DNA from: a virus
Virus record (IMG/VR): IMGVR_UViG_3300034152_000300
Span: 1-27,729 of that record
Strand: one strand, 5' to 3'
Length of the DNA: 27,729 nucleotides
The stretch's first letter is position 1; every line of letters begins with the position of its first letter. The position numbers were made by a program, and so were the translations under genes. The notes beneath the pieces are model-generated. The model did not search any database. It had not been told where the DNA came from and saw only the letters and a program-made list of their open reading frames with translations. Of this stretch, positions 9,627 to 22,792 are shown piece by piece.

Positions 9627-10209
9627 CTGCAAACCCTCTCACTCTCTCATCGTTCCGCAGAGTATTCAATAGCCTGCGTTCCCAGTTGATGATTCCTCCA
9701 GATGATATGCCGTACATGTCAGCCAACTCTCTCACAGAAAACTCATCAACAATCTTGTGATACAGGAAGTAGAAATCCCTTCGTGTCAGCACATTCTCCT
9801 CGATGAGAAGATTGAACAACTCCCGAACTTCCACCTTGAGGTGCTCCACCTTATCCGAAACACTCTCACCCCTATTCATTATACAACATTTGCAGGCAAA
9901 CTGCCGACGAGAAAAGCTAAATTGTGAACGAAGTATGGCTTTCACATAGGCCACTACCCTCATCCGAATCTGATTCTCATCAAAGTCATCTGGGAGAGAA
10001 GTCAGTGCATGAATCACGCCAATCACTCCCATCTGATGTAGATCTTCGAATTCCACATCCACCACTCCTTGGTAAGCACGGAGCATCTGATGAATCACGC
10101 TCAACACCAGACCATCCACCAAAGCCACAATCTCATCCAAAGCTTTAGGCGAATGACTCTCTTGATACTCATGTGCATACCTCTCCAAACTACTCAACGC
10201 CGCAGCCAT
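9616..10209 (-). CDS. sigma-70-like RNA polymerase sigma factor
   Basis: A 197-residue protein with region-2-like sequence (VDGLVLSVIHQMLRAYQG, then VEFEDLHQMGVIGVIHALTS, matching the D-L-x-Q-x-G-x-x-G-L-x-x-A pattern that contacts core and -10 DNA). Its C-terminal helix-turn-helix (EFSVRELADMYGISSGGIIN) is typical of region 4. It presumably redirects host RNA polymerase to phage (late?) promoters. An odd cysteine cluster (ACKCCIMN) lies between the domains. The start at 10209 forms TGATG with the HNH stop and has GGAGG eight bases upstream; an ATG at 10224 is the alternative. Which promoters it reads cannot be told from sequence alone. Confidence 0.75.
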   Translation of the reverse strand: MAAALSSLERYAHEYQESHSPKALDEIVALVDGLVLSVIHQMLRAYQGVVDVEFEDLHQMGVIGVIHALTSLPDDFDENQIRMRVVAYVKAILRSQFSFSRRQFACKCCIMNRGESVSDKVEHLKVEVRELFNLLIEENVLTRRDFYFLYHKIVDEFSVRELADMYGISSGGIINWERRLLNTLRNDERVRGFAVVD

Positions 10210-10688
10210 CAGAACGTCCTCCATCTCTTGTGTGTCTTAATACTAGAAATCTGCTGCTTGGAAACTCCATATAACCTAGCCAACTCACTTTGACTGTAAA
10301 GCCCTCTCCGCACAAGATCCCCAATCTCCTTCACATCACGTGAGCTTCGCACTGCCATGATTTCTCCAGCATTGTCTGTCCCATGCAATCTCTTGTCCTC
10401 ATAATTCTCCTTCTTCGTTCCCCATCTCAAATTACTCACATGATTGTTCTGAGTATCACCATCCAGATGACGGCATTCCATGCCTTCTGGACATGGACCA
10501 ACGAAAGCTTCTAGGACAAGACGATGAGCAAGACGGAAATACTGCTTGCCACCACTAGATAATCCATACTGATTATATCCGTTTATGGGTTTAGATTTCA
10601 AGAATTTCCCACCGAACGAAAAGGACCAAACTCTTCCATCCTCATAAATGAGATATCCAGGGAATCCTATTACCTCTCGTCTATCCAT
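10209..10688 (-). CDS. HNH homing endonuclease (intact copy)
   Basis: A 159-residue free-standing homing endonuclease. It has an N-terminal NUMOD4-type motif (EVIGFPGYLIYEDGRVWS), then an HNH_3 nuclease core (AHRLVLEAFVGPCPEGMECR, HLDGDTQNNHVSNLRWGTKKEN). It ends with a helix-turn-helix (SQSELARLYGVSKQQISSI) for target binding. It cuts intron- or gene-less alleles to spread itself. It lies directly downstream of the large terminase with an eight-base overlap, and GGAGG precedes the start. It is a close paralogue of the interrupted copy at 13365-13988; a 96-base core is nearly identical at the DNA level. Confidence 0.85.
   Translation of the reverse strand: MDRREVIGFPGYLIYEDGRVWSFSFGGKFLKSKPINGYNQYGLSSGGKQYFRLAHRLVLEAFVGPCPEGMECRHLDGDTQNNHVSNLRWGTKKENYEDKRLHGTDNAGEIMAVRSSRDVKEIGDLVRRGLYSQSELARLYGVSKQQISSIKTHKRWRTF
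10431..10526 (-). repeat. HNH core repeat, copy 1 (pairs with 13713-13808)
   Basis: Ninety-six bases encoding the catalytic HNH region are nearly identical to 13713-13808, with a handful of substitutions and no gaps. This is much closer than the flanking parts of the two genes. It suggests recent duplication or gene conversion restricted to the core. Confidence 0.8.
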
Positions 10689-12681: not shown

Positions 12682-13372
12682 TCCTGTCTTCCTCGAACTC
12701 TACTTCTAATTCCATGCTCCCACCATCCAAGAACAGCTGAGCATCCCTAGGGTCTATGCTATCCAACTCCTTCTTCAAGAACGGATCAATATCACTAGGA
12801 AGCTGTGGCGTTCTCTCTGTAGGTGGGAGTGTCTTGGGCTCTTCATGCGCATTCACATCCAAAGACTTTCTCGCATGAGGACTTTCCAAGAAGCCCATGC
12901 CCTGCAAGAACCTCATAGTAAGATCCTGCTCATGTTGCATCTTCTCAATGACCTTCAGCTTGAGTCGCTCCATGGGCATGTCCATATCCTCATACGTCTC
13001 ACACTGCTGATCACACTTGACGCACAACCACTTTCCCTCCTTGTATGGATGAGGCCGGACAATAGAACGACAGCACACAGAAAGCCGCTTCACGGATCTC
13101 TCATTGTACTCCTTGAGCTGCTCTGTCAGCTGGTTCTGAATCTGTGCCGCCTGCGATATGAACTCCTGAGCAAAGTGATAGCTCACCCACCTCAGATTAT
13201 CCCGGCGAACCTCACGCCGGAATTTTCTATAAATTCGTATCACATAGTCATCTTTGAGACGAATCCCATAGGTCCGCTCGAAATCCTCGATGGTATCCTT
13301 GATGACCCCTCGGTTCCTCAGCAGCGCCAAACGCACCCGATGCTCTATTTCCATCTTTTGTAGATCACCCAT
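12650..13372 (-). CDS. candidate small terminase subunit, zinc-ribbon containing
   Basis: A 240-residue protein directly upstream of and overlapping the large terminase, the classic place for the small, DNA-recognising subunit. The N-terminal part is helical and could be a DNA-binding domain (EHRVRLALLRNRGVIKDTI; YVIRIYRKFRREVRRDN). The middle has a possible zinc-binding set (CC, then CVKCDQQC). The C-terminal third is acidic and proline-rich. I do not recognise a terminase family from sequence, so the name is by position. The start at 13372 lies behind GGAGG and overlaps the end of the broken HNH gene by eight bases. Confidence 0.55.
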   Translation of the reverse strand: MGDLQKMEIEHRVRLALLRNRGVIKDTIEDFERTYGIRLKDDYVIRIYRKFRREVRRDNLRWVSYHFAQEFISQAAQIQNQLTEQLKEYNERSVKRLSVCCRSIVRPHPYKEGKWLCVKCDQQCETYEDMDMPMERLKLKVIEKMQHEQDLTMRFLQGMGFLESPHARKSLDVNAHEEPKTLPPTERTPQLPSDIDPFLKKELDSIDPRDAQLFLDGGSMELEVEFEEDRNADSGTEKTK

Positions 13373-13448
13373 GATTCCTCCATCTCTTCCTTGATTTTAT
13401 CCTAGAAACTTGTGCCTCTGAAACCCCATACAACTCTGCTATTTCCCT

Positions 13449-13548
13449 GGCCATATTTCGCGTTTCATCGCAGATTGCTCCGAAGAGTCTGACACCCGCT
13501 CCACGCGCGTTTTAGGTCTCGGTGAACCCACTCCCGCGACCATCTTCA
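13449..13548 (-). ncRNA. structured repeat element, copy A (inside HNH gene)
   Basis: About 100 bases shared with 22679-22779, differing at roughly ten positions plus a one-base length change. Read on the minus strand it begins TGAAGATGGTCGCGGG and ends ATATGGCC. The ends can pair (TCGCG at 13535-13539 with CGCGA at 13458-13462). A hairpin at 13471-13491 has a TTCG tetraloop: CAGA-CTC-TTCG-GAG-CAA-TCTG. The differences between copies keep both stems, which points to a folded RNA. The family is not identified; HEARO/omega-RNA-like or intron-derived RNA are candidates because of the HNH association. Confidence 0.65.
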
Positions 13549-13712
13549 ACGCTTGCCGTCTGTGAACATAGACCATGCCGCACAAGATCTAGAATCTCCA
13601 CCACCTCTTGACGAGACAACTTAGAACTCCCATTCTTCTCCCCAATCGGATGAAAATGCGTCCCATGCCTCCGCTTATCTGCCTGATTCTCCTCTTTCGT
13701 TCCCCAGCAAAG

Positions 13713-13808
13713 ATTACTCACATGATTGTTCTGAGGATTACCATCCAGATGACGGCATTCCATGCCTTCTGGACATGGACCGACAAATGCTTCGAGGACA
13801 AGACGATG
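13713..13808 (-). repeat. HNH core repeat, copy 2 (pairs with 10431-10526)
   Basis: This is the second copy of the 96-base segment encoding the HNH catalytic core, ungapped and nearly identical to 10431-10526. It belongs to the interrupted endonuclease gene. Confidence 0.8.
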
Positions 13809-14008
13809 TGCAAATTTACGACAATACGTCCCATCCACATAAAGCTTATACCTAACATAACCATCCTTGTCCAGAGATTGCATAAGAAATTTTCCGCAAG
13901 AATTCGCAGGAAGCTTAGAATCAGACCAAACCCTCCCATCCTCATAGATCCAGTAACCTGGAAATTCAAATATCTCTTTCCTGTCCATACACATTATACG
14001 AATCCAAA

Positions 14009-14413
14009 CTACTGCTGGTTCACAACGAGCCCATGAATATCCAAAAAACCACAATACACAACCTTGTGCATTTCCCCATCTAATCCCTGCACTTGCACAT
14101 TCCATGGAACTGACTTATCATAGTACACACGACAGCCGGGAACCAGCTCCTCTGGTGGTGGAAACCACTTCATCTTCTTTGTTTTTTGATCTCTAAGCCA
14201 AACTCCAGGCCCTATCGACAATAGTAGACCAGTTCCATCCTGATGATCCTCTCGGAACTGCTCAGGGATATCCAGTATTCCCAGCTCCCCAAAGGTCTTG
14301 GGTGGAGGAGTGGGCCAGATGAAAGCTATGTGCCGCATAGCCTGCACCGGAAATTCCAGCTCACCCTTCTTCGTGTGAAACGGAGTACTGATCGCAGTTG
14401 CCACGTTACTCAT
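14009..14413 (-). CDS. GroES-like co-chaperonin
   Basis: A 134-residue protein whose pattern fits phage GroES/gp31-type co-chaperonins, which cap the host GroEL to fold capsid protein. It shows an N-terminal strand (MRHIAFIWPTPPPKT), a mobile-loop-like segment with a hydrophobic tripeptide region (FGELGILDIPEQF), GTGLLLSIGPGVWLRD (compare G-x-V-x-A-V-G-x-G in GroES), PEELVPGCRVYYDKS (compare K-V-G-D-x-V-x-F), and CGFLDIHGLV at the end (compare the final D-I-L-A). It is longer than bacterial GroES (~97 residues) because of the N-terminus and inserts. No GroEL is in the window. The start at 14413 overlaps the previous stop (ATGA). Moderate confidence. Confidence 0.55.
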   Translation of the reverse strand: MSNVATAISTPFHTKKGELEFPVQAMRHIAFIWPTPPPKTFGELGILDIPEQFREDHQDGTGLLLSIGPGVWLRDQKTKKMKWFPPPEELVPGCRVYYDKSVPWNVQVQGLDGEMHKVVYCGFLDIHGLVVNQQ

Positions 14414-22537: not shown

Positions 22538-22571
22538 TGCATTTCCTCCAAATACTGGTTGACTTATCGTC

Positions 22572-22637
22572 TCACCATACGTGTTTTCTTTCAGCCCTAG
22601 CGGCACGTCTACGTTTCTTGTTCCCCTGGTTTACCAA
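22572..22637 (-). CDS. possible 21-residue basic peptide
   Basis: A short frame with a TTG start at 22637 and a TGA at 22572, encoding VNQGNKKRRRAARAERKHVW. The composition is strikingly basic, and GGCAGG lies just before the start, but the length gives little statistical support. It occupies the gap between the structured repeat copy B and the SSB gene. It could also be the remnant of a longer gene. Confidence 0.25.
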   Translation of the reverse strand: MVNQGNKKRRRAARAERKHVW

Positions 22638-22678
22638 ACCTGCCTAGACCACAGCAGGCCGGAAGGCCGCCTTTCTTC

Positions 22679-22779
22679 GGCCATATTTTCACGTTTCATC
22701 GCAGACCGCCCCGAAGGGTCTAACATCCGCTCCACGCGCGTTTTAAGTCTCGGTGAACCCACTCCCGCGACCATCTTCA
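22679..22779 (-). ncRNA. structured repeat element, copy B (intergenic)
   Basis: This is the second copy of the element at 13449-13548. It lies 13 bases after the clamp-loader stop and ends about 140 bases before the SSB start. The closing stem is TCGCG (22766-22770) with CGTGA (22689-22693), where C-to-T keeps pairing as G-U. The hairpin at 22702-22722 (TAGA-CCC-TTCG-GGG-CGG-TCTG) shows a paired T-A to C-G swap relative to copy A. It would be transcribed within the replication operon mRNA. Protein reading frames through the two copies differ mainly at amino-acid-changing positions, arguing against a peptide-coding role. Confidence 0.65.
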
Positions 22780-22792
22780 CGGAAAAAACCGA

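Follow-up and report, generated by a model that had tools for sequence, protein, structure and literature searches.

What is the segment of about 100 nt that a phage carries twice, once within an HNH endonuclease gene? The window (the whole stretch of DNA analysed) is a virus record of 27.7 kb, and the same virus is present in another assembly (L001) that is 99.4% identical. The initial annotation had described a repeat of about 100 nt in two copies, and this repeat is real: copy A (13449-13548, minus strand) and copy B (22679-22779, minus strand) share 91% identity over 93–101 nt, far above chance. These coordinates are confirmed, but each element in fact extends further: A covers about 13446-13559 and B about 22625-22783. 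The two copies had also been thought to end alike at ATATGGCC; in fact B runs about 55 nt further to a conserved transposon end, ...GGTAAACCAGG, and the part 3' of ATATGGCC is mostly deleted in copy A. Judged from sequence, we consider both copies, with a probability of about 0.92, to be solitary right ends of IS607-type TnpB transposons, namely orphan omegaRNA (reRNA) genes. A seemingly unknown phage RNA is thus assigned to an identified type of TnpB guide RNA, with a kink-turn-like scaffold and orphan copies in a phage.

Searches of phage and plasmid DNA gave a sole match, 26 of 27 nt in Rhodobacter phage RcXuper at 2800-2826 (L002:2501-2527), which concerns the 5' part of the element. Since this match lies in an unannotated tRNA/tmRNA region, is not conserved in the relative RpAliso and is left unscored by the family model, we regard it as chance or unexplained. 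Patterns made from the 5' half and the 3' half matched only in the same virus or at chance sites in coding genes, and the ORF reading by itself had no Pfam or PHROG match and no credible phage match. Separately, tmRNA-like genes that carry no GenBank annotation were noticed in RcXuper (L002:2931-3353) and RpAliso (L065:2812-3118); they match Rfam tmRNA_permuted and alpha_tmRNA, with the ARAGORN tag ANENFAPMEMRLAA in RcXuper.

A gapped kink-turn pattern (the pair GGAGC...GCGATGAAACG) was run against 85,000 species genomes and found two copies (L074 and L076) in one Anaerolineae MAG, CSSed11_269R1 (Chloroflexota, here G017), while the other 11 matches look like chance. A 5' motif search across the 85,000 genomes gave no match. 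G017 contains at least 41 copies of the element and 59 TnpB Zn-ribbon matches in about 5 Mb, a very heavy TnpB burden, and many of its contigs are broken at right ends. Its copies join the tnpB 3' terminus to a conserved right end, ...CAGTTTGGTAAACCAGG, beyond which the flanks differ; 30 right ends terminate in ..TGGTAAACCAGG or close variants and then diverge, and copy B carries their conserved right-end sequence. Moreover, a covariance model (R1), built from 21 G017 right ends only and without the window copies, finds B at full length (22625-22780, 148 bits, E=6.6e-35) and A (E=4.6e-22), and does not find the RcXuper site. Copy B is 85% identical in DNA to the right end G017:C207, and copy A is 89% identical to G017:C292 across 13449-13557. 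Weak matches to the model, with TnpB directly upstream, were found in two more Anaerolineae (G183 and G354).

The G017 homologues overlap a guided_TnpB ORF, and the window copies align to TnpB residues 331-382. One such TnpB (L088) passes NF040570 guided_TnpB, scoring 216 against a cut-off of 100, as well as PF01385 (OrfB_IS605) and PF07282 (Cas12f1-like_TNB); its reading frame traverses the RNA to a stop codon within the right end, as in copy B. In copy A, 34 codons remain recognisable (residues 331-364 at 13558-13457, 79% identity). In copy B, 50 codons are in frame (residues 333-382, 58% identity, E=3e-8 by tblastn with the L088 TnpB), and the frame is open to the native stop, at the same position as in L088. 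Apart from this 3' end (34 + 50 codons), the window and the sister-phage stretches that were checked contain no tnpB, and they contain no tnpA either. Because orphan reRNAs are known (36% of RAGATH-18 RNAs do not adjoin an IS607 TnpB; PMC11061315), the missing tnpB in cis lowers the case for a complete element, not the case for an reRNA. Candidates weighed on sequence grounds and dropped upon the tnpB homology were a DGR, an integron attC, a BHB intron, a translational bypassing element and an inverted-repeat MITE.

For L088 the IS200_TnpB and IS607_TnpB NCBIfam models score similarly, both under their cut-offs, and do not decide between the two, so that the IS607 label rests on a TnpA fragment and on GG sites. 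A partial IS607-type TnpA lies upstream of the L086 and L162 tnpB genes, with PF00239 over its cut-off; the fragment upstream of L086 reaches 77 bits with NF033518 against a cut-off of 110, as a partial serine recombinase. For A as for B, the right junction and the inferred empty site place the insertion at GG, as expected of IS607, which inserts at GG without duplication (PMC6188088), and no target-site duplication was seen. A left end was recognised in neither A nor B, and among the family copies no complete IS607 copy with a left end was found.

It had been proposed that the repeat is a structured RNA element of mobile DNA without a full ORF of its own, and this is borne out by the tnpB and right-end homology together with covariation. 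The single-sequence folding energies of A and B are no better than those of shuffled sequences (z = +0.2 and +0.5), so the case for structure rests on the homologues. In the fold on 24 sequences, 93–95% of cells are paired and 10–11 pairs show two-sided changes, and 0 of 500 shuffles matched the family fold. Besides hairpin I (columns 19-26/38-45), this fold has a central hairpin and a UUCG-type tip, followed by two hairpins on the 3' side. The internal loop of the central hairpin, GGA / NNN-GAA, has by eye what we take to be a Kt-7-type kink-turn arrangement; two registers are possible for the outer helix, and in the register beside the kink-turn no more than 79% of cells are paired. Hairpin I shows a compensatory C-G to G-C change common to both window copies, and the last hairpin of copy B is strongly different yet re-pairs. 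Set against seven references, copy A loses no pair of any of them (P<=0.011), and copy B keeps more pairs than randomised substitutions do for six of the seven (P 0.001–0.025; 0.075 against L086). As for the details first drawn from the two copies, the TTCG-capped hairpin and its U-A/C-G change hold in the family alignment, and the UCGCG/CGYGA closing stem is not the stem that the homologues support.

Copy A and the gene that it interrupts include the following features:

13446..13559, minus strand: copy A, predicted truncated IS607-type omegaRNA/right end in the HNH gene (model R1)
13512..14105, minus strand: 5' part of the HNH gene (NUMOD4/HNH_3 endonuclease), whose ORF is closed by an in-frame TAA that lies within copy A
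13365..13445, minus strand: 3' part of the HNH gene (EIAELYGVSEAQVSRIKSRKRWRNHG, then stop), from comparison with the paralogue at 10209-10688 and the relative L058
10209..10688, minus strand: uninterrupted HNH paralogue serving as the empty-site reference (86% DNA identity over 154 nt; PF13392)

The position of copy A inside an HNH gene, as originally reported, agrees with the paralogue and with the HNH gene of the related virus L058, both of which are continuous there. Relative to them, the window carries 111 additional nt, which contain an in-frame TAA and are flanked by TCACAG and AGGGAAATA, and the inferred empty site reads TCACAGAGG/GAAATA (slash, insertion point). The 5' part of the gene matches PF13392 (E=1e-16) and phrog_1492 (E=3e-36); the 3' part is intact and in frame with it across the insert, including the C-terminal helix-turn-helix codons. 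The whole gene (13365-14105) is absent at the same intergenic place in three sister phages (G003, G004 and G006), and is therefore probably a separate, earlier insertion. We read the HNH gene as a mere victim of the insertion of copy A. The 5' edge of copy A starts in tnpB codons, with a left join that shares GA with the L083 version of tnpB, and its right end is a shortened version of the conserved transposon end. Compared with B, copy A lacks the 51 nt that separate ATATGG from CCAGG, and the join shows a CC microhomology; without these last 51 nt of the scaffold, it is probably inert. In a comparison of L001:14242-14342 with window 13449-13549, four of the few differences fall within about 11 nt of copy A, where L001 has the GGGGCGGTC of copy B; this cluster looks like gene conversion from B.

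The features at copy B are as follows:

22625..22783, minus strand: copy B, predicted orphan IS607-type omegaRNA/right end, its scaffold complete from the 3' codons of tnpB through the CCAGG end
22634..22783, minus strand: residual TnpB C-terminal frame (VKMVAGVGSPRLKTRVERMLDPSGRSAMKRENMAEERRPSGLLWSRQVW, stop TAA within GTTTGGTAAACC), from tblastn with the L088 TnpB
22605..22624, minus strand: putative 20-nt guide of copy B (GGAACAAGAAACGTAGACGT), the flank directly after the transposon end
22558..22624, minus strand: what is left of a small ORF for a basic protein (MGQPKKGNKKRRRAARNERKKTRMVRR in L008), into which copy B is inserted and which is frameshifted downstream

Copy B had been placed between genes, and it does lie between the clamp-loader and SSB genes, though within the remnant of a small phage ORF. 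In L008, L010 and L011 this small basic-protein ORF is whole, directly after the clamp loader and before SSB, and the inferred empty site reads GAAGG/GTAACAAG. The guide position was set by analogy with reRNA guides (PMC8612924). The putative guide matches the uninterrupted sister-phage allele at 18 of 20 positions in L008 and 17 of 20 in L010, with a mismatch at position 2, and the matching sequence is preceded by GAAGG in both phages. The IS607 TnpBs that have been tested use the purine-rich TAMs AGGAG or GAGGG (PMC11061315), with which the empty sites of A and B agree. Copy B still looks like a complete guide RNA addressing the uninterrupted site of sister phages, which makes this a testable case of a phage with a guide RNA but without the nuclease, the guide fitting sister phages.

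In established TnpB biology the transcript is processed to a scaffold with a flank-derived guide and loads TnpB (PMC8612924, PMC10278001). In the intact element, the present segment would likewise make up the 3' portion of the tnpB mRNA, fold into the scaffold and bind TnpB, its 3' end carrying about 16–20 nt of flanking DNA as the guide. We infer that an IS607-type element entered the phage genome at GG dinucleotides via its serine recombinase, at one point inside the HNH gene and at another inside the small phage ORF, and that tnpA and nearly all of tnpB would have been lost later, in this order of events, with the guide-RNA segment remaining. By default we lean, somewhat, towards regarding both copies as passenger remnants today. 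Given TnpB in trans, the guide of copy B would address the uninterrupted allele of sister phages. Copy B may be transcribed or used, and its function with TnpB in trans is a possible and live alternative; since the nuclease and the transposase are both missing, any such action would depend on proteins supplied by the host, by a co-resident element or by a part of the phage genome not seen here.

That copy B is retained as a working orphan omegaRNA, with a scaffold under selection, so that a host TnpB would cut co-infecting sister phages without the insert, is an explanation we rate as doubtful; its role would be homing or phage–phage competition. The scaffold and the end are complete, the pairs exceed randomised substitutions as given above, and the terminal hairpin is re-paired by compensation (CCGG-CCUGC/GCAGG-U-UUGG versus CCAAAC-C-GUG/CAC-A-GUUUGG); the guide fits the empty alleles beside a purine-rich GAAGG, and the family is carried by a tnpB-rich genome. 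However, the structure may already have been conserved before the element entered the phage, the guide is mismatched at position 2, the host is putative, a tnpB was found neither in the window nor in the sister-phage stretches checked, and copy A, from the same source, is degraded. The fuller proposal, that a tailed phage keeps copy B as a weapon or homing device whose phage-borne guide exploits a host transposon nuclease, seems unlikely to us; if it were true, host TnpB with this guide would cut sister phages at the uninterrupted allele.

Alternatively, a short unit without tnpB (omegaRNA plus right end) could have been mobilised in trans by a host TnpA in the manner of a MITE, with no later deletion. 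The 5' edges of A and B fall within 11 nt of the same point in tnpB, which random loss of tnpB does not predict, and for this reason the short unit stays a candidate; both right junctions fit GG, and the net insert in A is about the size of such a unit. We nevertheless judge it improbable, as neither copy has a recognised left end, copy A has an additional internal deletion of 51 nt, and no second exact instance came to light in G017, where many copies end at contig edges.

It is very improbable that the segment is only a protein-coding fragment, the tail of tnpB without RNA function: the tnpB frame is indeed open in B to its native stop, but the RNA pairs covary strongly, the substitutions between A and B are distributed across all codon positions, and the segment extends past the stop to the conserved end. 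An HEARO/IscB omegaRNA, a group I/II intron or another Rfam class, which the HNH gene context and the omega-RNA-like look might suggest, is refuted by the tnpB homology and can be virtually dismissed: the homology is to the 3' end of tnpB and not to the 5' region of iscB, 111 nt is too short for a self-splicing intron, and Rfam, scanned at gathering thresholds and at E<=10, gave nothing for A, a weak babR match for B and nothing for the G017 homologue, with no match to HEARO or to a group I or group II intron. HEARO, the IscB omegaRNA, is a mobile-element guide RNA that sometimes occurs without its ORF, but its place is 5' of the ORF and it folds differently. The early guess of an omega-RNA-like element was thus right as to the omega type, in the form of a TnpB guide RNA, and wrong as to HEARO and the minimal intron, while the suggested retrotransposition is unsupported, the element being the right end of a DNA transposon.

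The statement that the repeat belongs to no known family holds for Rfam, but its kind is known, for TnpB right-end RNAs are well described (PMC8612924, PMC11061315). Like the reRNA of ISDra2 (IS200/IS605), the present RNA derives from the 3' end of tnpB and the right end, is about 150 nt long and has the flank-derived guide last (PMC8612924); its sequence and fold differ, and the window holds two orphan phage copies without a tnpB gene. The RAGATH-18-derived IS607 reRNAs share the IS607 context, purine-rich TAMs, and a kink-turn in a central part of about 70 nt between conserved 5' and 3' flanks (PMC11061315). Unlike them, the present RNA is contained in the tnpB reading frame as far as the stop codon, and its family occurs in Anaerolineae and a phage, most RAGATH-18 cases being of gut-metagenome origin; the family has no Rfam match at E<=10, in a library that may not include RAGATH-18. 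With IS607 transposons (PMC6188088, PMC4058570) the family shares the serine-recombinase TnpA fragment upstream of L086 and insertion at GG with no duplication seen, but in the window copies tnpA is missing, tnpB is reduced to its 3' end and no left end is recognised. What is new is a TnpB guide-RNA family of Chloroflexota that has no matching Rfam model, its presence in a phage, and a suggested host.

As to this host, the virus has no close named relatives, and the single MAG in which the element is shared hints at a host of Anaerolineae type. In the first 19.9 kb of the window the element is the sole match to G017, so that the suggestion comes without a spacer or other host link.

Two further observations were made. 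First, 24 of the 30 G017 right ends (L083-L112) stop 4–10 nt upstream of a start codon whose ORF has at least 80 aa, against 21% of control positions (binomial p ~1e-11). The G017 family appears to insert in Shine-Dalgarno sequences, which its CCAGG end may replace, and guides of inserts at such sites would address gene starts. Second, the window contains two 66-nt repeats (479-544 and 726-791), 92% identical and each lying across the end of an ORF and the start of the next, which look like a repeated leader or promoter.
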